NCBI GenBank assembly: GCA_958295895.1
Contig: CATQHI010000003.1
Span: 186,001-250,000, forward strand
Direction: 5' to 3'
DNA length: 64,000 bases
Origin: Saprospiraceae bacterium
GTDB lineage: Bacteria > Bacteroidota > Bacteroidia > Chitinophagales > Saprospiraceae
Position 1 is the stretch's first letter. The number at the start of each line of letters is the position of its first letter. This document shows, piece after piece, positions 17,679 through 50,574 of this stretch. The position numbers were made by a program, and so were the translations under genes. The notes beneath the pieces were generated by a model that saw only the letters and a list, made by a program, of their open reading frames with translations, was not told the origin of the DNA and ran no database searches.

Positions 17679-19727
17679 ATGTCCGCTTTTGCCCTTACCT
17701 ATAGCGCCGAAGACCAGTCGGTCGCCCGGCAGATCGCCGCCTTGGTGGGCGGTGGTGCCGTACCGGTACACATACCCATCGGTAGGGACAACGAGGGACC
17801 CCTGCTAACCGAGCAGCTCGGAGCGGTGGGCGGACCGGCCGTCCTGCTGCTCACCACGGCCTTTCTAACAAACCCGAACTGTCTGCTGGGACTGGAAGAT
17901 GTGCTTACGGGGGGCAGAGCCTACTTCGGCGTGCAAGAAGGGGTGGACCTGAGTAGTCGACGGGACCGGCTACGGTTCGTGAGCCACTGGCAGGACCGCT
18001 ACATCGACCTGCGGCGGGGGCTGGATACCTACGGGGAATCGGAACAACTCGCCTTTGATCGGTACTTGCAAAAGATCCGGGAGACCAGCATCGCGGTGCC
18101 CAGCCTGCTCGACCGCTTAGGCCAACTCCCGAGTGTGCAGTGGGCAGAACCGACCACCGGCGCCACCGGTGAACTGGAAGCCTTTCTCACCAGCCCCGCA
18201 CCCGCGGCCCCGGCCCAACCCCTGCCGGAAAATGTGGGACGGGTTGATGAACTGAGGAGTGATGAGGCGATGGAGGAAGCCTGGGAGTACTATGACCGCG
18301 GGGAGGAGCGTACGGCACTCGGTATGTTACAGCAGGCAGCAGCGCGCCTACCCGAGGAGATCGAGCTACGGTACCAGTATGCGCTGATGTTGGCACTCAC
18401 CGATCGCAGCGGCGGCGGACAGGCTGCACGTGAAGTACTCGATGAGGTGCTGGATGACGACCCTTACCACCCCGGTGCCCTGCTGCTAAGCGGGGAGCTT
18501 TATACCGCGGCGGGAGCTACCGAACGGGCGCGTAACGACTACGAGCGGGTCTATGAATTTGCCCCCGACACGCCGGGACTGCGGGAAAAATTGGGGGTCC
18601 TGGTGGCCGAGCATTTTCCCACCCAGGAAGTAACTGCCAGGCAGTACCTGGAAGAAGCGGAGGCGCGGGGGGAGCTCCGTGCAGCCGGGCTATACACCTA
18701 CGCGCAGCTGCTCGAAGCGCGGGGAGAACACGCGCGGGCGGAAGAAATCCTACTTAGCTGCCTGGCCCAGGATGCAGCCTATGCGCCTGCGTACTACCAA
18801 CTAGCCGTGCTCAGTTACCGGACGGGACGGCGCACGGAGGCCCGCGAGTACTTCGAACGGGCTGCTGGCCTGGAGCCGGCCTTTGCCACACCGGCCAACG
18901 AGGCTGCCTTTGGGGAGCAGGCGGAGTCGGGGGGGGAGCAGAGCGAAAAAACCGTACTGATCTCGGGGGCTACGAGTGGTATTGGAAAAGCGACGGCGCG
19001 GCGTCTGGCCGAGGATGGCTACCGACTGATCCTGCTCGGCCGCCGGGAGGAACTGCTCGATGCGTTGCACGACGAACTCCGGGAGGCACACGGTACGCTC
19101 AGTCACCGCGCGCAGGTCGATGTTCGCGACCGGGAGGCCGTAGGGAAGCTGCTCCACCAGCTACCAGAGGAGTGGAAACAGGTAGATATACTGATCAACA
19201 ACGCCGGTAAGGCGAAGGGCTTCGATCCGATCCAGGAGGGTCAGCTCGACCACTGGGACGAGATGATCGATGTAAACCTGCGGGGACTCCTCTACCTGAC
19301 GCGCGCCGTCACCCCGGGTATGGTGGAGCGCGGCCGGGGAATGGTCCTCAACGTAGCCAGTACGGCCGGTAAGGAAGTGTACCCCAACGGCAACGTATAC
19401 TGCGCTACGAAACACGCCGTGGATGCGCTGACCTACGCCATGCGCCTCGACCTGGTGAAGCACGGGATCCGGGTAGGGCAGATCTGTCCGGCCCACGTGG
19501 AGGAAACCGAGTTTGCCGTCGTGCGCTTCGACGGCGATCGGGAGCGGGCCCGGATCTACGACGACTTCCAGCCCCTGCGGGCCAGTGATGTAGCGGAGGC
19601 CATCGCCTTTATGGTCAATCAGCCGCCGCACGTGAATGTCCTGGACATGGTGCTCCAGGGCACCCAGCAGGCGAGCTCTACGGTGGTAGATCGCAGCGGC
19701 CGCGATCGATTCGCTCCGAACGACTAA
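17679..19727 (+). CDS. TIR-like / TPR / short-chain dehydrogenase fusion protein
   Basis: 682 residues from the ATG at 17679. Residues about 1-95 resemble a TIR domain: FALTYSAEDQSVARQIA matches the first beta strand and box 1, and PAVLLLTTAFLTNPNCLLGLE matches the later strand and the WCxxE region. The position of the catalytic glutamate is Gly71 and the Trp is Asn67, so NAD cleavage is doubtful. A helical linker leads to TPR-like repeats (about 188-410). Residues 424-660 are a complete classical SDR: NAD(P)-binding SGATSGIG (429-436), NNAG, and catalytic Tyr574-x3-Lys578 in YCATKHA. No signal peptide, so cytoplasmic. The tmk ATG follows after 7 bases, suggesting one transcript. The SDR is certain; the TIR call is by pattern only. 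Confidence 0.75.
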   Translation: MSAFALTYSAEDQSVARQIAALVGGGAVPVHIPIGRDNEGPLLTEQLGAVGGPAVLLLTTAFLTNPNCLLGLEDVLTGGRAYFGVQEGVDLSSRRDRLRFVSHWQDRYIDLRRGLDTYGESEQLAFDRYLQKIRETSIAVPSLLDRLGQLPSVQWAEPTTGATGELEAFLTSPAPAAPAQPLPENVGRVDELRSDEAMEEAWEYYDRGEERTALGMLQQAAARLPEEIELRYQYALMLALTDRSGGGQAAREVLDEVLDDDPYHPGALLLSGELYTAAGATERARNDYERVYEFAPDTPGLREKLGVLVAEHFPTQEVTARQYLEEAEARGELRAAGLYTYAQLLEARGEHARAEEILLSCLAQDAAYAPAYYQLAVLSYRTGRRTEAREYFERAAGLEPAFATPANEAAFGEQAESGGEQSEKTVLISGATSGIGKATARRLAEDGYRLILLGRREELLDALHDELREAHGTLSHRAQVDVRDREAVGKLLHQLPEEWKQVDILINNAGKAKGFDPIQEGQLDHWDEMIDVNLRGLLYLTRAVTPGMVERGRGMVLNVASTAGKEVYPNGNVYCATKHAVDALTYAMRLDLVKHGIRVGQICPAHVEETEFAVVRFDGDRERARIYDDFQPLRASDVAEAIAFMVNQPPHVNVLDMVLQGTQQASSTVVDRSGRDRFAPND

Positions 19728-19734
19728 TCAACCC

Positions 19735-20355
19735 ATGAGAAACGGACCTTACTTTATTGTTGTCGAGGGACTGGACGGCAGCGGCAAGACTACCCAGATC
19801 AAGCATCTGCGCGACTACTTCCAGGCACGCGGGGAGGCGTGCCACCTTACGGCTGAACCTACCGATTTGCCTACGGGCACGTTTATCCGCCGGGTACTGC
19901 GCGGTCAGGAACGTGTGGATCCCCGTACCCTGGCCGCGCTCTTTGCCGCCGACCGGGTAGAACACCTGTTTCACGCCACGGAGGGTATGCTCGCAAAGCT
20001 GGCAGCTGGCTACCACGTGATCAGTAGTCGGTATTATTTCAGCAGCCTGGCCTACCAGAGCGAGTACGTCGATCCGGCCTGGGTGGCTAGTCTTAACCGC
20101 CTGGCAAAAGCGACACTACCGGCCGATCTGACCCTTTTCCTGGACCTCGATCCCGAGGTGAGTATGCAGCGCATTGCCGGCCGGGGTGAGGGCAGCGAGT
20201 TATTTGAAACGCTGGAAAAACTGCGGCAGGTGCGGGAGGACTTTCACCAGGCCTTTGCGGTCTACGGAGAGGGAGAGCGCATCGTGGTGATTGATGCAGG
20301 GGACACGAAGGGTGTGGTTGCGGAGCAGATAATGAAGGAGGTACAAAAGCTATAG
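19735..20355 (+). CDS. tmk: Thymidylate kinase
   Basis: 206 residues, the usual size. It phosphorylates dTMP to dTDP. The P-loop GLDGSGKTTQ near the N-terminus, the DR segment ALFAADRVEHL, the SSRYYFSSLAYQ substrate region and the LID segment AGRGEGSELFE are present. It begins 7 bases after the TIR/SDR fusion gene and is probably co-transcribed with it. The ATG at 19735 (MRNGPYFIVVEGLDGSG) fits the family. Confidence 0.94.
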   Translation: MRNGPYFIVVEGLDGSGKTTQIKHLRDYFQARGEACHLTAEPTDLPTGTFIRRVLRGQERVDPRTLAALFAADRVEHLFHATEGMLAKLAAGYHVISSRYYFSSLAYQSEYVDPAWVASLNRLAKATLPADLTLFLDLDPEVSMQRIAGRGEGSELFETLEKLRQVREDFHQAFAVYGEGERIVVIDAGDTKGVVAEQIMKEVQKL

Positions 20356-27214: not shown

Positions 27215-27481
27215 ATGCCATTACTCGTCCTACTGCTGGGGTTCTTCTTCCCCCGCCTCATTATCGTGTTGCTCTGGTTTTTCACCGGCTGGTTTCGCGA
27301 TGCCTTTGGTGGAATTTTACTGCCGCTGCTGGGACTTATCTTCTTACCCCTGACCACCCTCTGGTACGGTATTTCGGAGGTGTACTTCCCCGGTACCGTA
27401 CAGACCGTGGGATTAGTGGTCGCCGTGCTGCTGGACCTCGGTATCCTGGGAGGTGGAGCGCGCCGGCGTCGCACGGCCTAA
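27215..27481 (+). CDS. Small inner-membrane protein, hypothetical
   Basis: 88 residues with three hydrophobic helices ([58 protein letters not shown]) and a basic tail ARRRRTA. Length and layout recall small YggT/Pmp3-like membrane proteins, but no family is certain. Its stop overlaps the convergent carboxyltransferase gene by 4 bases. Confidence 0.65.
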
Positions 27482-29016
27482 AGTGGGATGTTGCCGTGTT
27501 TCTTTTTGGGTAGTATGGCCACTTTGTGCTCGAGACTGGCGAAGGCGCGGATGAGCTTGCGGCGCGTATCGCGGGGATAGATCACCTCGTCGATGAACCC
27601 CCGCTCGGCGGCGCGGTAGGGATTGGCAAAGGTGTCGGCGTACTCCCGTTCCTTGTCGGCGAGTTTGGCGGCGGGATCGGCGGCGGCGTCGATTTCCCGC
27701 TTGAAGATGATCTCACTGGCCCCCCTGGCCCCCATGACGGCGATCTCCGCTCCGGGCCAGGCGAAGTTGAAGTCCGCACCAATGTGCTTGGAGTTCATCA
27801 CATCGTAGGCCCCGCCGTAGGCCTTGCGGGTGATGACGGTGATGCGGGGCACGGTAGCCTCACTCAGGGCGTAGAGCAGTTTGGCACCGTTGGTGATGAT
27901 GCCGTTCCACTCCTGGTCGGTGCCGGGGAGGAAGCCGGGTACGTCGACCAGCACCAGCAGGGGCACGTTGAAGCAGTCGCAGGTACGGGTGAAGCGAGCC
28001 GCCTTTTTGGAGCTGTCTACATCCAGTACGCCGGCGAGGCTGTAGGGCTGATTGGCCACAATGCCGATACTGCGACCGGCCAGGCGGGCGAAGCCCACCA
28101 CGATGTTTTCGGCGTAGCGGGGGTGGATCTCCAGGAAGCTTTCCTGATCCACGATGCCCGCGATCACCTCGCGCATGTCGTAGGGCTGGCTGGCGTTGTC
28201 CGGTACGATGGACTCCAGCGCCTCCCGTACCTCGGTGCCGAGGGTGTAGGGGAGGGTAGTGGGCTGCTCCTCGCAGTTCTGGGGGAGGTAGCTGAGCAGC
28301 CGGCGCAGTTGCTGCAGACAGAGTACGTCGTTGGCGGCGGTGAGGTGGGTGACGCCGGACTTGGTGGAGTGCGCGCTGGCCCCGCCGAGCTCCTCGCTAC
28401 TGACCTCCTCGTTGGTGACGGTTTTTACTACGTTCGGACCGGTGACGAACATGTAGCTGGTGTGCTCCACCATGATGGTAAAATCGGTCATGGCCGGGGA
28501 GTACACCGCGCCCCCCGCGCAGGGACCCATAATGGCCGAGAGCTGGGGAATCAGCCCCGAGGCCTGCACGTTGCGGTAGAAAATATCGGCGTAGCCCCCC
28601 AGCGAGCGCACCCCCTCCTGGATGCGGGCCCCACCGCTGTCGTTGAGCCCGATCAGGGGAGCGCCTACCTTGACGGCCATATCCATCACCTTGCAGATCT
28701 TCTCGGCATGGGTCTCCGATAGCGAGCCCCCGAAGACGGTGAAGTCCTGGGCGAATACGTAGACCAGTCGCCCGTCGATACTTCCGTATCCCGTGACCAC
28801 CCCGTCCCCGAGAAAAACCTGCTCCTGCATCCCGAAGTCGGTGGTGCGGTGGGTAACTAGGGCGCCGATCTCCTCGAAGCTGCCCTCGTCCAGTAGGTAG
28901 TGCACCCGCTCGCGGGCGGTAAGCTTTCCCTTTTGGTGCTGCTTATCGATGCGTTTCTGACCGCCACCGAGCTGGGTGGTGGCGAGTTTCTGGGCGAGTA
29001 GCTCGTTCTTAGTCAT
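27478..29016 (-). CDS. pccB: Acyl-CoA carboxylase, carboxyltransferase (beta) subunit
   Basis: 512 residues of the propionyl/methylmalonyl-CoA carboxyltransferase family. It transfers carboxylate from carboxybiotin to an acyl-CoA. Crotonase-like halves are clear: [21 protein letters not shown] and [16 protein letters not shown] in the first; [37 protein letters not shown] and [15 protein letters not shown] in the second. It is the last gene of the operon BCCP, biotin carboxylase, carboxyltransferase, 9 bases after the biotin carboxylase gene. Propionyl-CoA is the most likely substrate, which I infer from the family. Confidence 0.9.
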
Positions 29017-29025
29017 GGGCGGGGG

Positions 29026-30486
29026 CTATCGGCGGGCACGCCAGGCGGCCGAGGGGGTGGGTACGGTGAGTTGGTCCTGCTGACTCTGGTGTACGTAGGC
29101 GGCAAAGAGGGCAGCAACCTCCTCGACCGCACGGTCCTGCTCGGCTACGGCCTCCGGGGTGAAGTACTTGGCTACGAAATTGGTGCTGAAGGCCCCACTG
29201 CGGAAGGCCGGGTGCTGGCACACGAAGCGGCCGAAGGGTAGGGTGGTCTCGATGCCGGTGATGGTAAAGTCATTGATCGCCGCGAGCATGCGCTCGATCG
29301 CCTCGGCACGGGTAGCCCCGTGTACGATCAGCTTGGCGATCATAGGATCGTAGTTGATGGGTACGGTCATGCCCTCACGAAAGCCCCCGTCTACGCGGGC
29401 ATCCGCGGGCGGGCGGTAAGTCGTCAGTGTGCCAATGCTAGGTAGGAAGTTATTCGCCGGGTCCTCGGCGTAGACGCGCAGTTCCAGGGCGTGGCCCGTA
29501 ATGGAGAGCTCCTCCTGCGAAAAGGCGAGCCGCTCGCCCCGGGCAACTCGGATCTGTTGCTCGACCAGGTCCACGCCCGTGATGAGCTCCGTGACCGGGT
29601 GCTCCACCTGAAGCCGGGTGTTCATCTCCAGGAAGTAGAAGTTGTGCGCCTCGTCGAGCAGGAACTCCACCGTTCCTGCCCCCACATAGTCGCAGGCTTG
29701 GGCCACCTGCACCGCCGCTTCGCCCATACGGCGACGCAGCTCCGGGGAGAGCACGGCCGAGGGGGCCTCCTCCACAACCTTCTGGTGCCGCCGCTGGATG
29801 CTGCAGTCGCGCTCGAAGAGGTACAGGCAGCTACCGTGGGTATCGGCCAGCACCTGGACCTCGATGTGGCGGGGGGCGGCTACGTACTTCTCAATGAATA
29901 CCGCCCCGTCGCCGAAGGCGGACTCGGCCTCCGAGATGGCCCGTTGCATCTGTTCGGCTACCTCTCCGGCAGACTCTACCACCCGCATACCCTTACCACC
30001 CCCCCCGGCGGCCGCCTTGATGAGGATGGGAAAGCCAATATCCTCCGCGATGGCCGTAGCCTGGGCCACGTCCCTTACCGCCTCATCAATACCCGGCACC
30101 ATGGGGATATCGTAGTCGGCCACCGCCGCCTTTGCCGCTAGTTTATTACCCATCACCTCGATGGCGTGCGGTCGCGGACCCACGAAGGTGATCCCAGCGG
30201 CCTCTACCTGCCGGGCAAACTCCGCATTCTCACTTAAGAAACCGTAGCCGGGGTGGATGGCATCGGCCCCCGTTTGCCGGGCGGCGTCAATTACTTTATC
30301 GATGCGCAGGTACGACTGCGCGGAGGGTGCCGGTCCGAGCAGCACGGCCTCGTCGGCGTAGGCTACGTGGGGTGCGTCGCGGTCCACCTCCGAGTATACC
30401 GCTACGGTGGCGATGCCCATGCGGCGGGCGGTGCGCATCACGCGCAGAGCGATCTCACCGCGGTTGGCTACCAGTAGTTTCTTCAT
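29026..30486 (-). CDS. Acyl-CoA carboxylase, biotin carboxylase subunit
   Basis: 486 residues. ATP-dependent carboxylation of biotin on the partner carrier protein. The ATP-grasp core is intact: MKKLLVANRGEIALRVMRTA at the start, KAAAGGGGKGMRVV glycine loop, EKYVAAPRHIEVQVL, RDCSIQRRHQKVVEEAPS, and MNTRLQVEHPVTE. The C-terminal 40 residues are a loose extension (AEQDRAVEEVAALFAAY). It overlaps the carrier-protein gene by 4 bases (ATGA), a sign of translational coupling. Confidence 0.93.
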   Translation of the reverse strand: MKKLLVANRGEIALRVMRTARRMGIATVAVYSEVDRDAPHVAYADEAVLLGPAPSAQSYLRIDKVIDAARQTGADAIHPGYGFLSENAEFARQVEAAGITFVGPRPHAIEVMGNKLAAKAAVADYDIPMVPGIDEAVRDVAQATAIAEDIGFPILIKAAAGGGGKGMRVVESAGEVAEQMQRAISEAESAFGDGAVFIEKYVAAPRHIEVQVLADTHGSCLYLFERDCSIQRRHQKVVEEAPSAVLSPELRRRMGEAAVQVAQACDYVGAGTVEFLLDEAHNFYFLEMNTRLQVEHPVTELITGVDLVEQQIRVARGERLAFSQEELSITGHALELRVYAEDPANNFLPSIGTLTTYRPPADARVDGGFREGMTVPINYDPMIAKLIVHGATRAEAIERMLAAINDFTITGIETTLPFGRFVCQHPAFRSGAFSTNFVAKYFTPEAVAEQDRAVEEVAALFAAYVHQSQQDQLTVPTPSAAWRARR

Positions 30487-30962
30487 GCGAGTTCGATGAG
30501 GAGCTGCCGCTTGTCGACGGCCTGTCCCTGGGTGACGTGAATCGCCTTCACCGTGCCCGGGGCGCTTGCCTTGATTACATTTTCCATTTTCATTGCTTCC
30601 AGTACCACCAGGGGCGTGCCGGCCTCGATGGCATCCCCCGCCGCAACGGCAATGCTGAGGATGAGGCCCGGCATGGGTGCGGTAATGTCCGTATCGGCGC
30701 TAGCCGCCGTGGTGGCAAAGCCCAGCTGCTTCACGAGTTGCTGGAGCGGCCCGTCGATACGCACCGTGAAAATTCTTCCGTTGACCTTCAAGTCAAGCTT
30801 TAGGTCACTAGGATCATAAATCAGTAATTCACAATGGTAGACCTTTCCGTTGCGGATCAGGTGAGCCTCACTTTCAGTAAATGTTATCGCGTCCAACGCC
30901 GCCAGCTCTGCTGCGGAAATCTCGTGCGTGTTGTTTTCACCGACCGTAACCGTGTACTGCAT
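30483..30962 (-). CDS. Biotin carboxyl carrier protein of acyl-CoA carboxylase
   Basis: 159 residues from the ATG at 30962; a TTG three codons upstream is ignored. The C-terminal biotinyl domain carries the biotinylated lysine in LEAMKMENVIKAS, after TDITAPMPGLI. The N-terminal about 80 residues form the linker/BT-like region of separate carrier subunits of propionyl-CoA carboxylase-type enzymes. It is the first carboxylase gene of the operon and lies 42 bases after an SDR gene on the same strand. Confidence 0.9.
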   Translation of the reverse strand: MQYTVTVGENNTHEISAAELAALDAITFTESEAHLIRNGKVYHCELLIYDPSDLKLDLKVNGRIFTVRIDGPLQQLVKQLGFATTAASADTDITAPMPGLILSIAVAAGDAIEAGTPLVVLEAMKMENVIKASAPGTVKAIHVTQGQAVDKRQLLIELA

Positions 30963-31004
30963 GGGGGACAACCTACTGAAATAAACCGAAAACAGTCCTA
31001 AAAC

Positions 31005-31768
31005 CTAGCGCGCCTGCATTCTGATGCCCGCGTCCATCCGCACGCACTCGCCGTTCATGTAGTTGTTCTCGACCAGGTGCTGAGCTAGTCGGGCCACCTC
31101 CTCCGGTTTGCCGAGGCGCACGGGGTAGAGGGGCTGCTTAGCTAGCGAATCGTACACCTCCTGCGGAAAGGCATCGAACATCGGGGTGTGGATCAATCCC
31201 GGCGCAATGGCGTTGACGCGGATGCCGTTGCGGGCCAGGTCGCGCGCCATAGTCAGCGTCAGACTCACGATTCCCCCCTTGGAGGCGCTGTAGGCGGACT
31301 GGCCGATCTGGCCCTCGTAGGCCGCCACGGAGGCGGTGTGGAGGATGACGCCGCGGCTGCCGTCCTCGTCCAGGGGCTCGTTCTTAGCCATGGCCCAGGC
31401 GGCTAGGCGCGCTACATTAAAGGAACCGATGAGGTTGATCTGAATGACTTTCGTGAAGAGCTCCAGGTCCCCCGGTCCGTCGCGTCCGATCGTTTTCACG
31501 GCCGGGGCAACGCCAGCGAAATTACAGCAGATGTGTAGCGCCCCAAAACGGCCCACAACGCCATCGATTACGGCCTGCACGGCCTCGCCACCGGTGATGT
31601 CCACCGCGAAGAATGCCGCCCGGTCGCTACCCAGTTCTTCCACCACCTGCTGCCCCCGCTCGACGTTCAGATCCAGGATCGCCACCCGGGCTCCAAGGCG
31701 GTGAAAGTGGCGTGCCGTAGCCTCTCCGAGTCCCGAGTGATGAGGGCGGTCTTATTGCTAATTTCCAT
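31005..31768 (-). pseudogene. Short-chain dehydrogenase (HSD10/3-hydroxyacyl-CoA type), frameshift at N-terminus
   Basis: The frame from about 31700 to the stop reads a good SDR: ARVAILDLNVERGQQVV, CNFAGVAPA, ILHTASVAAYEGQIGQ with catalytic YSASKGG, and IAPGLIHTPMFD. The C-terminus VENNYMNGECVRMDAGIRM is typical of 3-hydroxy-2-methylbutyryl-CoA dehydrogenase-type SDRs. The N-terminal piece MEISNKTALIT (ATG at 31768) is in another frame, and the glycine-rich NAD motif between them (near 31730) is short by some bases. It precedes the acyl-CoA carboxylase operon, which fits a role in branched-chain or propionate metabolism. The indel may be a consensus error. Confidence 0.78.
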
Positions 31769-42574: not shown

Positions 42575-45500
42575 TCACCGATTCCGCTTATAGCTCTCCG
42601 CCTGCTCAAAGATCTCTCGGTACACCTCATCCCGGTCGATGGGCGGATAGCCGTGATTGGCGAGCAGAATGATCAGGTCCATCTTGAGCGAGGCCTGGAT
42701 GTCGGCGCGATCGTGCCAGTCGGTGTACTTGGCTTTGTCGTCGACTACCTTTTTGACCTCCCGGGCCAGCACGAGCAGCTTGTCCTCCGGGAACTTGAAG
42801 TCGTACTTGGCGCAGAGTTGTTGGAGGATGTCGTAGAAGGCCTTTTCCTCGAAGTCAATGCCGAGGTCTTCGTAGCTCTGCCACTCGGTGCGGACTTTGC
42901 GGATTAAGTCCATGATCTCGTCGGTAAACTCGTCCATCACCTCGCCTCGCCACATGTCGTTTTCTGTACGGTCGTTGTAACGCTCGACCAGCGACCGCAG
43001 CTTGTCGCTGAAGTTGATGCCCTGCGCCCGGTTCACCTTGCGGAAGGCGTCGATGGCTTTCTTCAGCAGTTGCTGCAGCAGCTTGATGCGGGTGTTGGGC
43101 AGCTTGATCTTTTCGAGCTTCTTTAGGTAGTCGTCGCTGAAGATGTCCTGGGTGCCGTCCTGCCCGTCGAAAGTGAAGAGCTCCTCCACGCCGTCGCTGG
43201 CCAGGGCCTGGTCGATCATCTCCCGTACGCGGGCGTTCATCTGGGCAGTATCGGGGGCATCGCCCTTGGTGAGCTTGTGGATGATGGAGCGTACCGCCAG
43301 GTAGAAGTGTACGTGGTCGCGCTCCTCCTGCGTCAGGGCTTCGCTGCCGGTACAGATGTCGTAGGCCGCCTTCATGCGCTTGGCCAGTTCCAGGAACCGC
43401 TTTTCCACCGGCTGGGTAACCTGCACGTATTCCCCCGCCCGGCGCAGTGCTTCCAGCTGCTGTAGGGGGGTGCCGTGGAAGTAATCAGTACTGTCGAAGC
43501 GGTGGAACACCTGCCGCAGCAGGTCCAGCTGGTCGCGCAGGGCGACGATCGACTGGTCCACTTCCTCGAGGTTCTTTTCCTCCCCCTTCCCGTAGAGTGC
43601 CATGGCCAGGTTCAGCTGCCGCTTGATGCCGATGTAGTCGACCACCAAGCCCTTCTCCTTGCCGGCGTAGCGCCGGTTGACGCGGCTGATGGTCTGGATG
43701 AGGTTGTGCCGCTGGATCGGCTTGTCGATGTAGATGGAATCCAGGAAGGGCACGTCGAAACCCGTCAGCCACATGTCCACCACGATGGCGATCTTGAAGT
43801 TACTCTTGGCCTCCTTGAACTGGCGGTCCAGCTCCTTGCGGTAGTCCTTCGTGCCGAGGGCGTCGTAGAGCTCATGGGGGTCGTCCTTGTCGCGGGTCAT
43901 GATCATCTTGACGCGGGTCATGGGCTTTACGGTAGCTGGGCTTACAACGGGGGCCCCTCCCCCCGTTGACGCAGCACCTGCGTCCCCGCCCTCCTCCGCA
44001 CCTTCCCCGGGCACTTCCGCCCACTCCGGCCGCAGGGCAATGACCTGCTGGTAGAAGGCGTAGGCAATCTGGCGGGTGCTGCAGACGAACATGGCCTTGC
44101 CGATCACCGTAGCCCCCTCGCTGACCCGCCGCTCGTAGTGGGCGACAAAGTCCTCCGCGAGGGCCTGCAGGCGCTCGGGATTGCCGAGAATGCTGCTCAT
44201 GCCCGAGGTGGTGCGCTTGCTCTCCTCAATCTGGTGCTCGTTGGCTCCCTCCTCCGCTGCTTGTGCGTAATATTCCTCGATGCGCTCCAGTTCGCTGTTG
44301 CGGAGGGCGACCCGGGCGGCGCGGCCCTCGCGTACGATACCGACCGTAATGCCGTCCTTGACCGACTCGGTCATGGTGTAGCTCTCCACCACCGGACCGA
44401 ATACGTCCAGCGTAGCGTCCACCGGCGTACCCGTGAAGCCGACATAGGTGGCGTTGGGCAGGCTCTCGTGCAGGTGGTAGGCAAAGCCGTAGCGCTTGCG
44501 GACCCCCTGCTCGGTGACGGTCACCTTCTGGTCCAGGTTGATCTGGCTGCGGTGGGCCTCGTCGCTGATGCAGATGATGTTGGTGCGCGCGCTGAGCAGG
44601 TCGGTATCCTCGTTGAATTTGTGGATGGTGGTAAGGAAGACGCCGCCGCTCTTCCGCCCGCCCAGTTGCTCGCGCAGGTCGGCGCGGCTGGTTACGCTGC
44701 GCACGCTCTGGTCGCCGATGTAGCGCTGGGCCGACTCGAACTGCCCGCTGAGCTGGTCGTCCAGGTCGGTACGATCGGTGATCAGCACGATGGTCGGACT
44801 GCGCAGGTGCACGCTCTTCATCAGCAGCCGCGTCAGGAAGAGCATGGTGTAGCTCTTGCCGCACCCTGTAGCCCCGAAGTAGGTGCCGCCCTTTCCGTCG
44901 CCGAGGGGTCGCTGGTGGCCGAGGATGTTTTCGTACAGGGCGCGGGCCGCGTAGTACTGCGGGTAGCGGCAGAGGATCTTGTGGTCCGGCGGCGCGGTAT
45001 CGGGGAAGAAGATGAAGTTGCGGACGATGTCCCGCAGCCGCCGCTTGTCCAGCATCCCCCGCACCATGGTGTAGAGGGCGTCGATACCGTCGCGGTCGGT
45101 GAAGTCGTTCTCCACCCGCCGCCAGCCGTAGAAGAATTCGTAGGAGGCAAAGAGGCTGCCGGCCTTGGTATTCACGCCGTCACTGATGACGCAGAAGGCG
45201 TTGTACTTTAACAGCTGCGGGATGTCGCGCTTGTACCGTACGGTGAGCTGGGTGTAGGCCTCCACCAGCTGCACCTCCTCCCGCACCGCGCTCTTGAACT
45301 CAAAGACCACCAGGGGCAGCCCGTTGATGTACAGGATGCCGTCGGGGATGCGCAGCTGATCGTCCCTCCCCAGAATCTCCAGCTGGGTGACGAAGCGGTA
45401 GGTGTTGCGCTCGCCGTATTCGTAGAAAACTTCGTTCGTTTGCGTCTCGTCCCCCGCCGGCACGGGTTCGTAGTGGGGGTCTAGGTCCGTGAAGTCGAGC

Positions 45501-45826
45501 AGGTGGATGTAGAGGTCCTTGGCCCGGTGGTCGTCGCGCTTCAGGATGAATCCGTCCATCACCTTTCGGATGATTGTCCGGTTACTGGCGTATAGGTCAG
45601 AGGCCGGCAGTACTTCCAGTTCACGGACGATGCGGTCGGCTTCCGCTTCCGTCAGCCCCTCACGCCCGTAACGCCTACGTAGGTAGGCGTGGAGGTCGTC
45701 GCGCAGCAGTACGCTCTCCTTCGAGGGGCGGTTTAGGGTAGCGCCGAGGGCGTGGGGGTAGCCCTGTTCGTCCAGTAGTTCGACGACCGCGGCTTCTAGT
45801 TGGGCTTCGTTGAAGGGCTTAGACAT
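42575..45826 (-). CDS. hsdR: Type I restriction enzyme, R subunit HsdR
   Basis: 1083 residues. HsdR translocates DNA and cuts it at a distance when HsdS finds an unmethylated site. The nuclease motif is PDG...EFK (Pro161-Asp162 to Glu176-x-Lys178). The motor has Walker A GATGCGKS (318-325), DEAH 422-425 and GFTGTP later, then SNFKIAIVVDMWLTGFDVP and RVNRRY. The C-terminal helical domain that docks on the methylase is complete. A Gly/Ala-rich insertion (about residues 610-635) contains a copy of the dispersed repeat. The gene is separated from hsdM-hsdS by a two-gene module on the other strand. Confidence 0.95.
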   Translation of the reverse strand: MSKPFNEAQLEAAVVELLDEQGYPHALGATLNRPSKESVLLRDDLHAYLRRRYGREGLTEAEADRIVRELEVLPASDLYASNRTIIRKVMDGFILKRDDHRAKDLYIHLLDFTDLDPHYEPVPAGDETQTNEVFYEYGERNTYRFVTQLEILGRDDQLRIPDGILYINGLPLVVFEFKSAVREEVQLVEAYTQLTVRYKRDIPQLLKYNAFCVISDGVNTKAGSLFASYEFFYGWRRVENDFTDRDGIDALYTMVRGMLDKRRLRDIVRNFIFFPDTAPPDHKILCRYPQYYAARALYENILGHQRPLGDGKGGTYFGATGCGKSYTMLFLTRLLMKSVHLRSPTIVLITDRTDLDDQLSGQFESAQRYIGDQSVRSVTSRADLREQLGGRKSGGVFLTTIHKFNEDTDLLSARTNIICISDEAHRSQINLDQKVTVTEQGVRKRYGFAYHLHESLPNATYVGFTGTPVDATLDVFGPVVESYTMTESVKDGITVGIVREGRAARVALRNSELERIEEYYAQAAEEGANEHQIEESKRTTSGMSSILGNPERLQALAEDFVAHYERRVSEGATVIGKAMFVCSTRQIAYAFYQQVIALRPEWAEVPGEGAEEGGDAGAASTGGGAPVVSPATVKPMTRVKMIMTRDKDDPHELYDALGTKDYRKELDRQFKEAKSNFKIAIVVDMWLTGFDVPFLDSIYIDKPIQRHNLIQTISRVNRRYAGKEKGLVVDYIGIKRQLNLAMALYGKGEEKNLEEVDQSIVALRDQLDLLRQVFHRFDSTDYFHGTPLQQLEALRRAGEYVQVTQPVEKRFLELAKRMKAAYDICTGSEALTQEERDHVHFYLAVRSIIHKLTKGDAPDTAQMNARVREMIDQALASDGVEELFTFDGQDGTQDIFSDDYLKKLEKIKLPNTRIKLLQQLLKKAIDAFRKVNRAQGINFSDKLRSLVERYNDRTENDMWRGEVMDEFTDEIMDLIRKVRTEWQSYEDLGIDFEEKAFYDILQQLCAKYDFKFPEDKLLVLAREVKKVVDDKAKYTDWHDRADIQASLKMDLIILLANHGYPPIDRDEVYREIFEQAESYKRNR
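43945..43991 (+). repeat. Dispersed GC-rich repeat, copy 6, in frame inside hsdR
   Basis: A 9-bp hairpin (43945-43953 with 43960-43968) is followed by CACCTGCGTCCCCGCCC at 43975-43991. It is in the opposite orientation to the six intergenic copies. It encodes the low-complexity EEGGDAGAASTGGGAP segment of HsdR without breaking the frame. Confidence 0.6.
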
Positions 45827-45828
45827 AT

Positions 45829-45850
45829 GGGCGGCGGGGCGCGGGTGCAG
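45829..45850 (-). repeat. Dispersed GC-rich repeat, copy 7
   Basis: GGCGGGGCGCGGGTGCAG lies directly upstream of the hsdR start on the minus strand. It differs from the core by one base and a one-base gap. Confidence 0.45.
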
Positions 45851-45958
45851 GGGTTATGGCGTAAAGCAATAGCTTCGGATAGGGTCACTAATGTAAAGTT
45901 ATTTTTCTGAGATTTTAGCGGGGGTGGCGTAGTACGGTATATTGGAGTCCCCCACGAT

Positions 45959-46795
45959 ATGTACATACCCCCTACATTGACGAGCATAGAGGAACTCAGA
46001 CCGGCCGACGTAGTGGCAGATACGCTCACCAAGCCCATCCGCTTGTTGGCATCCGATTTCAACGATTACTACGTCAAGGTGCAGCGAAGCCAGCAGGATG
46101 CAGGGGTCGTGAAGGAGTGGCTGGCCGCTCACTTTCTCAAACTTTGGGAGTTGCCGGTTCCCGATTTTACGGTTGTACAAATACTGCCGGAGCACGTTCC
46201 GGTGGGTTTCCATCCTGACTACCAGCCGTACCACTTTGATCGCCCCGCCTTCGCATCCCGTGCGGAAGAGAATGCGCTGGAGGTCAGTAAGCTACTGGAG
46301 ACCCCCAATGACTACCAGCGCAACCTCAGCGGTATCGGTGGCGAACTGATCTGGCTAGCCCTGTTCGACGTCTGGATTTCCAACAACGACCGTCATGCGA
46401 ATCACTACAATTTAATGTACTCCGCCGCTGAAGCTCCTAAGTTCCTACCCATCGATCATGGCCTGACGCTAGATAGTATTGACTACGGAAATGACCCGGA
46501 ACGGCAGACCGAAAACGACAACCTAAGTGATTCGCCGGTTTTCGATCGTTTCGTGACCAGAAAGGAAATGGTCGACTTCGGTCACGGTGCCGCTGAGCGG
46601 CGGGCACTTTTCCGCGAAAAAGCCGAGGCCTGTAAGACTAATCTGAAGGATATCATCGCTCAAATGCCGGAAGCATGGCAGCTTGCCAAACCTACCTTGC
46701 ACCACGACCTGCAATCAACTATTTTTAGCGACCAATGGTTAGCAACGACCTGGGAGACCTACCTTGGCTTCCTCGAAAGCGCCGCCAGACGTTAA
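45959..46795 (+). CDS. HipA-like serine/threonine kinase (HipA_2 type)
   Basis: 278 residues. The kinase elements can be placed: Lys40 (DYYVKVQ) and Glu53 (VVKEWLAAHF) for ATP, the catalytic loop SNNDRHANHYN (Asp144, Asn148), and the metal-binding Asp166 in LPIDHGLTLD. All key residues appear intact, so it should be an active kinase. The N-terminal region is short and lacks the HipA N-subdomain, as in the HipA_2 group. It is followed after 3 bases by a DUF3037-like gene, a known family pairing. The pair sits between hsdR and hsdS, pointing against both. TATATTGG, one mismatch from a -7 box, lies at 45938-45945. Confidence 0.8.
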   Translation: MYIPPTLTSIEELRPADVVADTLTKPIRLLASDFNDYYVKVQRSQQDAGVVKEWLAAHFLKLWELPVPDFTVVQILPEHVPVGFHPDYQPYHFDRPAFASRAEENALEVSKLLETPNDYQRNLSGIGGELIWLALFDVWISNNDRHANHYNLMYSAAEAPKFLPIDHGLTLDSIDYGNDPERQTENDNLSDSPVFDRFVTRKEMVDFGHGAAERRALFREKAEACKTNLKDIIAQMPEAWQLAKPTLHHDLQSTIFSDQWLATTWETYLGFLESAARR

Positions 46796-46798
46796 ATC

Positions 46799-47650
46799 AT
46801 GTCTACCTTCTACTCCATCCTCTACGCCCAACTCAACGCCGCGACCCACGAGCGGCTGACCATCGGCATGGTCATGGTGTCGGAAGAAACGGGGCTGGCC
46901 ATTGCCGACTACTCGCGCCGTAAGCTGAAGATCGTCACCGAACTGAACGGAGCCGCCGCCAGCCGAAACCTCAAGTGGGCGCTGACCGGCTTCCTCAAGG
47001 CGCAGCAGCAGCTAACCGCCGAACGGGATGATCTCGCCCTGTTTAAGGAGGAGAGTTTTCATCGGTCGGTCTTTACGGAACGGTACCTGAAGTACCTGTC
47101 GTCCTACCAGAACAACTTGCTGATCGTGGATCCTCCACGCAGGATCAGCCTCCCCGCCACGGAGGAATTGTTCAACAAGCTCTACGCGCGTAATGTCGAT
47201 GCTACCGGCCGCTGGAAAGCTGAACGGGTCCGGCAGGAACGGCGATTCGCGGAGATTAAGAGCCGGGAGGACATTCGCGATCACTTCCGCATCGATGTCA
47301 CCATCGACCGCGATGTTGCCCCCAAAATCCGCATTCCCGTCAGAGTGGACCTGGCCGGCCAGAATGACCTACTTACGGTCGCTAAGTTCGTGGATACGGA
47401 CCGACCCACCCGCTTCACCAACCAGGATGCCCACGCCTTCAACAGCCTGTTGATCGACACTCCGGAGGCCAAGCACTGGCTCGTCAGTTCGGAACCTAAC
47501 AAGATCACGCAGCCGGAACACCACTACGCCTGGAAGAACCTGTACGAGGCTTTTAAAGGGTACTACCTGGACCTCTCAGAAGTAGAGGAGATCGAGCAGT
47601 ACGCCGAAGCCCACCACGTCGAGCCCCTGGCCGCTTCCTCTGAGGAATAG
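46799..47650 (+). CDS. DUF3037-like partner of the HipA-like kinase
   Basis: 283 residues. The N-terminus MSTFYSILYAQLNAATHERLTIGMVMVSEETGL fits DUF3037, whose usual proteins are near 110-130 residues. Here an extra about 150-residue C-terminal part follows (RIPVRVDLAGQNDLLTVAKFVD onward), with no motif I recognise. A Lys/Arg-rich helical middle (RWKAERVRQERRFAEIKS) may bind nucleic acid. It starts 3 bases after the kinase gene, so the two are certainly one operon. It converges on hsdS with a 16-base gap. Possible roles are kinase substrate, antitoxin or activator; none can be proven from sequence. Confidence 0.65.
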   Translation: MSTFYSILYAQLNAATHERLTIGMVMVSEETGLAIADYSRRKLKIVTELNGAAASRNLKWALTGFLKAQQQLTAERDDLALFKEESFHRSVFTERYLKYLSSYQNNLLIVDPPRRISLPATEELFNKLYARNVDATGRWKAERVRQERRFAEIKSREDIRDHFRIDVTIDRDVAPKIRIPVRVDLAGQNDLLTVAKFVDTDRPTRFTNQDAHAFNSLLIDTPEAKHWLVSSEPNKITQPEHHYAWKNLYEAFKGYYLDLSEVEEIEQYAEAHHVEPLAASSEE

Positions 47651-47666
47651 CGCCCATGACCCTGTT

Positions 47667-49020
47667 TTAGTCGGTTACCGCGCCTTCGGTGGTCGTGAAG
47701 TTTTCTACGGATAGTTTGCCGGAGATGAGGGGTGGGAGGAGAGTATCTCTCATCATTTCCAAGGCAATAACTTTCTGATTGTTGCACCGAAGTTTTTCAA
47801 CGAACGAACCCATACTCTTATCAAATTTTCTAACGAGATCCGGAGTGGAATACAGAATTGATAGGTCTCCAATTTGGTCAGGACGTATTGCAGGGTAAGC
47901 AGCCCCGTCCGCTATGTGGGCAAAATAATTGACGCTCTCAGGAAGTGTCAAAAAGCTATAGATCCAATTCTGTTCAGTAGCTTCTTTTGCACGTATAACC
48001 GCAAATCCTGTGCTTCCTGTCAATCCCTTTCTGTCGACTCGGGCGTAAGACTTATTTCCAGGTCTCACTAATCCATATATGATATCATTTACCCTCAGAA
48101 TTCTTCTGGCTCGAGAGGGGGCTTCACTCTTATTTGTCAGAGTCACCGAATCGATGTTGCCAGAGTTTACTCCACTTAGGTCAACGTAATTAACTACATC
48201 AGGAAATGTTTTGTGTGACCAGCTTTCAGGATTGAACTTCACCAAATCACCAACTTTTCTGCAACACCACCCCTCAGGCACCCACTTCCCCAACTCTTCC
48301 GAAAACACGAAGCGGTCGGGAAAGAGGGCCAGTACATCCTCGGGCAGGTGGGGATAGTGGTCGTGGGCCAGCACCTTACGCCGCTTGGCGACCCGGCTAG
48401 CGAGCGCCTCGGGTAGCTCGCGGCCGGCGGCCAGGGCCTTGTCGATCACCGGGTCGAAGTCCACGAACCAGCTGTGGAAGAGGGTTTGCGCCATCGCCTC
48501 CAGGGTGGCGTTTTGGCGGCGGAGTAGGTCTAGTTTTGCCAGGACTCCGGCTATTCTTGCCTGTGTTAGAATCGACAAATTTGGCACCTTCAGCTCCAGA
48601 ATGTCAGGTTTCAACACCCTGGGTACTGTCGAACCTCGGCCGCTCCTCGACAGCAATTCTTGTTGGATTGGCCGACTCTGAAGGTAGTAAAATAGATATT
48701 TATTGTTTAAGACCTCAGGATTGACTCGTAATGCGATAACTCTTCTAGTTATCAAATAGGTATTTCCATCTTCCGGGTACAAAGCCAGTTCGCCGACTGG
48801 TGCTTCTGTAGTAATTAGAACATCTCCTGGTTCAGTAAAGCCCCTTGTAGTCCATTTCCTATAGTCGTCTACACTGATGCGTTTAGGAGAGGAGAAGTCA
48901 AGTCTACCTGCTTTGACATTAGCGGCACTTATAGTGAGATAACCAGTTTTGCTTTTCGGCGGGGTTTTTCCTCGGTAATCAATGACTGCCTTTAGTCCAG
49001 TCTTTAGTTGGACAAAATCA

Positions 49021-49031
<11 letters not shown>
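47667..49031 (-). CDS. hsdS: Type I restriction-modification specificity subunit HsdS
   Basis: 454 residues with two target-recognition domains. TRD1 is about residues 1-155 and is closed by a conserved helix (LSILTQARIAGVLAKLDLLRRQNATLEAMAQTLF). TRD2 starts near WVPEGWCCRKVGDLVKF and ends with the second helix. The spacer carries the common FHSWFVDFDPV segment. HsdS reads the bipartite DNA target for both methylation and cleavage. The TRD regions are visibly lower in GC than the helices, as expected for swapped modules. It overlaps hsdM by 11 bases. Confidence 0.93.

Positions 49032-50574
<1,543 letters not shown>

Follow-up and report, generated by a model that had tools for sequence, protein, structure and literature searches.

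TIR domains of bacteria are best known as immunity-linked enzymes that consume NAD+. The NADase action of prokaryotic TIR domains requires a glutamate (PMC10022894), TIR and TPR domains occur in bacterial conflict systems (PMC7159879), TIR domains acting as scaffolds are an established class in animals (PMC8635717), and the short-chain dehydrogenase (SDR) YdfG depends on NADPH, malonic semialdehyde being a substrate that it reduces (PMC10655335). The gene described here, from a Saprospiraceae bacterium, lies in a stretch of 64,000 nucleotides that was analysed as a whole and is called the window below; it joins a TIR-like domain, a TPR solenoid and an SDR.

The fusion protein is like the scaffold TIRs MyD88 and MAL in that the profile of its family matches the MyD88 TIR (2.6e-5), which in the profile alignment has Gln at the position of the glutamate, and in that 51 of 54 family members lack the NADase glutamate; it is unlike them in being bacterial and fused to TPRs and a metabolic enzyme. 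Its nearest TIR relatives found by profile are ordinary Bacteroidota TIR_2 proteins (e.g., L138 and L141), in which, unlike in the fusion, the glutamate is kept (10 aligned) and of which three were tested and contain TIR_2; in some the TIR is linked to other parts (EAD11 in L138; judged by eye, leucine-rich-repeat-like in L140), and others have membrane-like segments, also judged by eye. The SDR half resembles YdfG in having kept the catalytic tetrad and the two arginines after beta-2, the difference being that the YdfG model NF007829 is 248 positions long and comprises neither TIR nor TPR. The stand-alone SDR found in Saprospiraceae behind a TlpA-type gene shares the SDR clade and the gene order with the fusion and is without the TIR-TPR arm.

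In open-licence PMC text, the literature searched, the TIR-TPR-SDR architecture is not named in titles or opening abstracts, and within that literature it appears to be new. That conflict systems contain TIR and TPR domains (PMC7159879) was already known, as were YdfG-like SDRs; what appears to be new is that they are combined, in conserved form, at a metabolic locus. Our tentative explanation, which we put just short of an even chance, is that a YdfG-type SDR with a housekeeping, NADP(H)-dependent function bears an N-terminal pseudo-TIR/TPR interaction arm. That an ordinary-looking SDR carries an arm from which the glutamate has usually been lost suggests that an immune module has been put to new use in organising or controlling everyday metabolism.

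The gene and its three modules

A reading frame of 682 amino acids is unbroken across positions 17679-19727 of the plus strand. Its features, and the gene that follows it, are given with their positions in the window.

17679-19727, plus strand: TIR-TPR-SDR fusion gene, 682 amino acids, stop codon at 19725-19727 (translation, full-length relatives)
17679-18029, plus strand: TIR-like domain, residues 1-117 (MyD88 profile match, TIR_2 in relatives, AlphaFold2, Foldseek)
17889-17891, plus strand: Gly71, at the position of the TIR catalytic glutamate (alignment with ordinary TIRs)
17988-17990, plus strand: Trp104, the tryptophan of the motif HWQDRY, unchanged in all 46 aligned proteins (alignment)
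18030-18191, plus strand: helices after the TIR core, residues 118-171 (AlphaFold2 secondary structure)
18192-18263, plus strand: linker, residues 172-195, of low confidence at 175-187 (AlphaFold2 model)
18264-18911, plus strand: TPR solenoid, residues 196-411 (Pfam TPR families, modelled helix pairs)
18942-19724, plus strand: classical SDR domain, residues 422-682 (PF00106, 4.9e-54; 3ASU/3ASV, 2.4e-56)
18963-18986, plus strand: cofactor motif SGATSGIG, residues 429-436 (sequence, alignment)
19041-19046, plus strand: Arg455-Arg456, where beta-2 ends; an NADP(H) preference is predicted (Arg455 in 46 of 46, Arg456 in 44 of 46)
19398-19412, plus strand: catalytic Tyr574 and Lys578 (Tyr574 in 45 of 46, Lys578 in 46 of 46)
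19735-20355, plus strand: tmk-like gene, neighbour outside the fusion (adjoins the fusion in 17 of 17 loci, L001-L017)

The order TIR-TPR-SDR in one polypeptide, which the preliminary description had read from the window, is borne out by the open reading frame, by Pfam (TPR families between residues 208 and 401, PF00106 at residues 424-613 of the window protein) and by the family, full-length TIR-TPR-SDR proteins being found across many Saprospiraceae genomes; the nearest named relative is from Neolewinella maritima, which agrees with the Saprospiria named in the preliminary description. That an assembly error had joined a separate SDR gene to the arm can be rejected because the same domain order occurs in named isolates and in many independent assemblies. 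In the AlphaFold2 model of the full-length protein the mean pLDDT is 90.8 (below 50 at residues 175-187 and 415-421) and the pTM 0.50, so that the modules are well predicted and their mutual arrangement is not. The TPR-S sensor domain (PF20308) was considered for the window protein and rejected, its score of 13.6 bits (E 0.11) lying below the threshold of 27.6. Rfam gave no match at gathering scores anywhere in the window.

For the N-terminus an alignment (A2) was made of the window protein and 45 relatives, thus of 46 members; like alignment A1 it is without L118, which has a doubtful long N-terminus, and without L116, a partial ORF. Pfam TIR_2 is matched at E<=1 by 32 of these 46 N-termini (best 8.8e-8) and Pfam TIR by 5; the window protein by itself has no Pfam TIR match. 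A search of the PDB with the 46-member profile retrieved the MyD88 TIR at 2.6e-5. Residues 1-177 were modelled by AlphaFold2 with a pLDDT of 93.8, and seven of the ten best Foldseek matches of this model are TIR domains, with a best E of 2.2e-3, none at or below 1e-3, TM values of about 0.4-0.5 and an rmsd that is often large; the TIRs matched are those of flax L6, RPS4/RRS1, MAL/TIRAP, Brucella and Paracoccus. In genome searches the profile also picks other TIR proteins at about 1e-20 and weaker, and the three of them tested with Pfam have TIR_2 at 2.4e-10 to 7.8e-16. Among the 119 genomes matched by the profile the window TIR ranks 94th (counted by hand), and after residue 86 it is shorter than in the relatives shown in the alignment. 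Taken together, Pfam in the relatives, the MyD88 profile match and Foldseek make it very likely that the N-terminus is a TIR domain in diverged form. The TIR domain proposed in the preliminary description thus holds on the strength of the family profile and of a confident TIR-like fold; taken from the window protein alone the case is weak, and the Foldseek scores are modest.

The SDR half was said to be complete, with SGATSGIG and Tyr574/Lys578, and these motifs are intact (PF00106 4.9e-54). As in classical SDRs there is a glycine-rich cofactor motif and an N-S-Y-K tetrad, of which Asn533, Ser561 and Lys578 are found in 46 of 46 aligned proteins, the window included, and Tyr574 in 45. The best NCBIfam model is that of YdfG (NF007829), which scores 224.6 bits against an equivalog cut-off of 411; the SDR is YdfG-like and is not filed as YdfG. 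The best solved structures are 3ASU/3ASV (2.4e-56), which we take to be YdfG, 2NWQ, YMR226C and a sulfoacetaldehyde reductase. In SDRs, arginines where beta-2 ends point to NADP(H) as the cofactor, and the fusion SDR is predicted to be NADP(H)-dependent. Its substrate class, judged from the YdfG resemblance only, would be that of 3-hydroxy acids or short aldehydes. The window contains a second, unfused SDR (31005-31685, minus strand), which lies beside acyl-CoA carboxylase-type subunits; the latter, a biotin carrier protein and this SDR, all named from sequence, are encoded within 27478-31685 on the minus strand.

Distribution, history and selection

In 164 of 199 Saprospiraceae genomes the SDR was found at E<=1e-55, with one match per genome except in G088 and G178. 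Open reading frame lengths were counted for 150 listed genomes of these 164: the SDR-bearing frame has at least 500 amino acids in 89, fewer than 300 in 59 and an intermediate length in 2. The N-terminal profile matched 119 of the 199 genomes at E<=0.001 and 112 at E<=1e-20. At the latter level a match is present in all 89 genomes with a long frame and in 4 of the 59 with a short one, of which two (G164, G152) are explained by contig ends and two (G090, G189) are true splits. Thus 55 of the 150 listed genomes have a short SDR with no arm found, which indicates that the arm is dispensable. In G104 the fusion, 827 amino acids long, is on one contig.

Among 298 genomes of the order the profile matched 58 at E<=1e-8, 56 of them in Saprospiraceae (four only at the level of ordinary TIRs) and two outside, in G038 (452-amino-acid frame) and G353 (529-amino-acid frame); among 395 genomes of the phylum it matched 7, 3 of them in Saprospiraceae. 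From these outcomes the fusion looks limited to Saprospiraceae. In members of the order outside the family the best SDR matches listed sit in frames of about 240-310 amino acids.

Arm and SDR are adjacent separate genes (L131, L132) in both species opened of one genus (G090/G189), in which the TIR-TPR frame stops and the SDR starts about ten bases on in a different frame. In G144, a genome that is 100% complete, a TIR-TPR frame of 843 amino acids has a C-terminus that is not an SDR; no SDR match was found within 12 kb around the arm, and none with more than 37% identity genome-wide. Since G225, of the same genus, carries the fusion (its frame is cut inside the SDR), the arm can outlive the SDR too. 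The 843-amino-acid arm of G144 (L191, 5197-7725, minus strand) continues at its C-terminal part into a different sequence. Among the loci opened, G090/G189 are the only true split and G144 the only arm without SDR. Ten short TIR frames (G164, G064, G179, G192, G173, G027, G152, G212, G220 and G029) each stop at a contig end and are therefore uninformative on splitting. Other irregular cases are G232, whose short TIR frame holds a stretch of unknown sequence, G101 (L135), with an in-frame stop within the TPR region, G207 (L187), with a stop after the TIR and unrelated sequence beyond, and G087, in which the SDR that continues the frame has diverged (34%).

When the labels fused and alone are placed on a tree built from 97 SDRs, the family base of which is without resolution and the bootstrap not fully settled, they need about 7 changes each, as compared with means of 32 and 27 when shuffled. 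Owing to frame irregularities of the kind described above, L135 and L148 are counted with the fused, and L134 with the stand-alone SDRs, the latter a contig-end artefact. Judged from this tree, one old gain followed by repeated losses and several gains are both possible.

The TIR, TPR and SDR modules are under purifying selection. Six pairs were compared, in which synonymous sites approach saturation; the dN/dS values lie at 0.06-0.27 in the TIR (5 defined values), 0.08-0.21 in the TPR and 0.07-0.10 in the SDR, and at 0.10-0.28 (one undefined) in the stretch between TIR and TPR. Compared with the SDR, dN is higher for the TIR in 5 of the 6 pairs and for the TPR in all 6; in one of the pairs, L112/L113, TIR and TPR both have a smaller dN/dS than the SDR.

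These patterns could also mean that a TIR-TPR gene was placed before the SDR gene and became fused to it, the two halves being loosely coupled and working separately. The adjacent genes of L131 and L132, the 55 of 150 listed genomes with a short SDR and no arm, the arm kept without SDR in G144 and the roughly seven label changes on the SDR tree are all in line with such a history. We nevertheless consider it unlikely: the halves are fused in 89 of the 150 listed genomes, the modules are under purifying selection, and the ten opened short TIR frames, ending at contig ends, lend it nothing.

Gene neighbourhood

Directly behind the fusion lies what is presumably tmk, by sequence a dTMP kinase gene, in all 17 of the loci L001-L017, which come from Neolewinella/Lewinella and a single "Bacteroidia bacterium"; in 8 of these 17 the surroundings from fba to glgP are like those in the window, with an insertion in 2 of the 8. 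Outside the window's genus a lipoprotein-like gene lies directly upstream on the same strand; its product has an AhpC/TSA-redoxin match and a CPNC motif, from which we read it as probably of the TlpA type. The gene lies upstream of the fusion in 29 of 35 loci at any distance, in 24 of them within -60 to +200 bases; two of the six fused loci without it are cut by contig ends. It is also found upstream of the stand-alone SDR in 23 of 32 loci, 7 of these 23 showing an overlap of 4 bases; of the nine remaining loci five are from other families of the order and one is at a contig end. In the split loci (2 of 2) the order is TlpA type, TIR-TPR, SDR. Since the order of TlpA-type gene and SDR is common to fused, stand-alone and split loci, in most sampled loci of the family the arm has a conserved position, with a constant partner on either side. 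Farther upstream one repeatedly meets a dicarboxylate symporter and a small protein for which Pfam gave no match above cut-off.

The window's genus has kept the TlpA-type gene in 20 of 21 genomes, in 19 away from the fusion (in G000, for example, at C7:122454-123752) and in G011 still adjoining it. A representative of the TlpA-type lipoproteins that, in much of the family, are encoded directly upstream of the SDR is L111, 6414-7757, with its homologues.

The glutamate position and the role of the arm

The preliminary description had placed Gly71 at the position of the TIR catalytic glutamate, and alignment with ten ordinary TIRs confirmed this: where these have the glutamate of C-x-x-E, as expected of a TIR NADase, the window protein has Gly71. 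The position was scored in 54 TIRs of the family, comprising the 46 members of A2 (window included) and 8 further loci. It is occupied by R in 17, G in 15, N in 7, H in 4, E in 3, K, Q and D in 2 each, and S and A in 1 each, so that the glutamate is absent in 51 of 54. The ordinary relatives have kept it in 10 of 10 aligned, these ten being a subset, namely those opened among the weaker profile matches; by eye, it is also kept in 5 of 5 further ordinary TIRs from families elsewhere in the order, class and phylum. With the glutamate in only 3 of 54 family TIRs, a scaffold or sensor role rather than that of an NADase, as had been proposed, is favoured.

The three exceptions are L001, which is the window's nearest relative, L129 and L130. 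The fusion TIRs of L129 (4555-5124) and L130 (3166-3735) have a near-canonical glutamate in CMFE and CMYE (CMxE), and by their sequence could possibly be active NADases within a family that mostly lacks the glutamate. Among the ordinary TIR proteins, L140 (104-3664) is a frame of 1187 amino acids with leucine-rich repeats, a middle part that looks GTPase-like by eye, and a C-terminal TIR that keeps the glutamate.

If the protein is a housekeeping dehydrogenase with an interaction arm, the SDR would carry out the routine NADP(H)-dependent interconversion of small 3-hydroxy acids or short aldehydes; the TIR, mostly glutamate-less, would most likely act, in the manner of scaffold TIRs, through contacts with other TIRs or with a partner; the TPR solenoid would bind a partner; and TIR and TPR together would assemble, place or regulate the dehydrogenase. 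The sequences show the architecture and its conservation, purifying selection, the missing glutamate, intact SDR motifs and a conserved gene order; from them we infer the cofactor, the substrate class, the scaffold role and any functional link to the TlpA-type protein; that the arm may assemble or regulate the SDR is suggested by analogy with the scaffold TIRs of animals. In favour of this explanation we count the prevalence of the fusion, purifying selection, the loss of the glutamate, the intact SDR tetrad with Arg455, the nearness of the SDR to the NADPH-dependent YdfG, the adjacent split genes (2 of 2 species), the TlpA-type gene before fused and stand-alone SDRs, and the existence of scaffold TIRs as a class. 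Against it we count the pTM of 0.50, the 3 of 54 TIRs that keep the glutamate, the 55 of 150 armless SDRs, the arm without SDR in G144, the divergence of the window TIR (94th of 119) and the pair L112/L113, in which dN/dS is lower in TIR and TPR.

A more far-reaching version, which seems to us somewhat unlikely, is that the TIR was taken from immunity and kept family-wide as an arm that assembles or controls an NADP(H) dehydrogenase with a housekeeping function, forming a metabolic "signalosome" in which TIR contacts would cluster or switch an oxidoreductase tied to the periplasmic thioredoxin system. The nearly single-copy, widespread fusion and its natural armless, split and SDR-less versions constitute a comparative system for the question whether bacterial TIRs also act as metabolic scaffolds.

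The TIR fold, like the SDR fold, commonly deals with nucleotides. The arm could therefore be a nucleotide sensor, the dead TIR binding NAD(P), ADP-ribose or a relative and switching the SDR allosterically; two nucleotide-handling folds are joined in one chain, and the TIR fold and Trp104 are retained despite the loss of the glutamate. Since the residues that replace the glutamate vary freely across the 54 TIRs, which is unlike a conserved new pocket, we regard nucleotide sensing as improbable. Still less probable is that the window member is degenerating, with a decaying TIR and only the SDR of importance here. Its TIR is shortened after residue 86 and has a low profile score, as such decay would have it; against this stand dN/dS values relative to L001 of 0.18 (TIR) and 0.21 (TPR), with synonymous sites near saturation, and the confident predicted fold of residues 1-177.

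A role in immunity, the TIR being an NADase or signal generator and the SDR its effector or sensor, is the least likely of the readings and to our mind very improbable: TIR and TPR domains in described conflict systems (PMC7159879), the glutamate kept in 3 of 54 family TIRs and a type I restriction-like cluster about 23 kb off in the window speak for it, against which stand the loss of the glutamate in 51 of 54, PADLOC, which matched no anti-phage system model and yielded only PrimPol at 0.023 (chance level), one SDR match per genome nearly everywhere, constant metabolic or TlpA-type neighbours, and an SDR that persists without arm in many genomes. The immune link made in the preliminary description is thus not upheld, and a defence gene encoding an NADase is disfavoured by the glutamate loss, PADLOC and the housekeeping or TlpA-type neighbours.

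The type I restriction-modification-like cluster of the window extends over 42575-50574 on the minus strand, about 23 kb away from the fusion, and includes the following genes, named from sequence.

42575-45826, minus strand: HsdR-like
47667-49031, minus strand: HsdS-like
49021-50574, minus strand: HsdM-like
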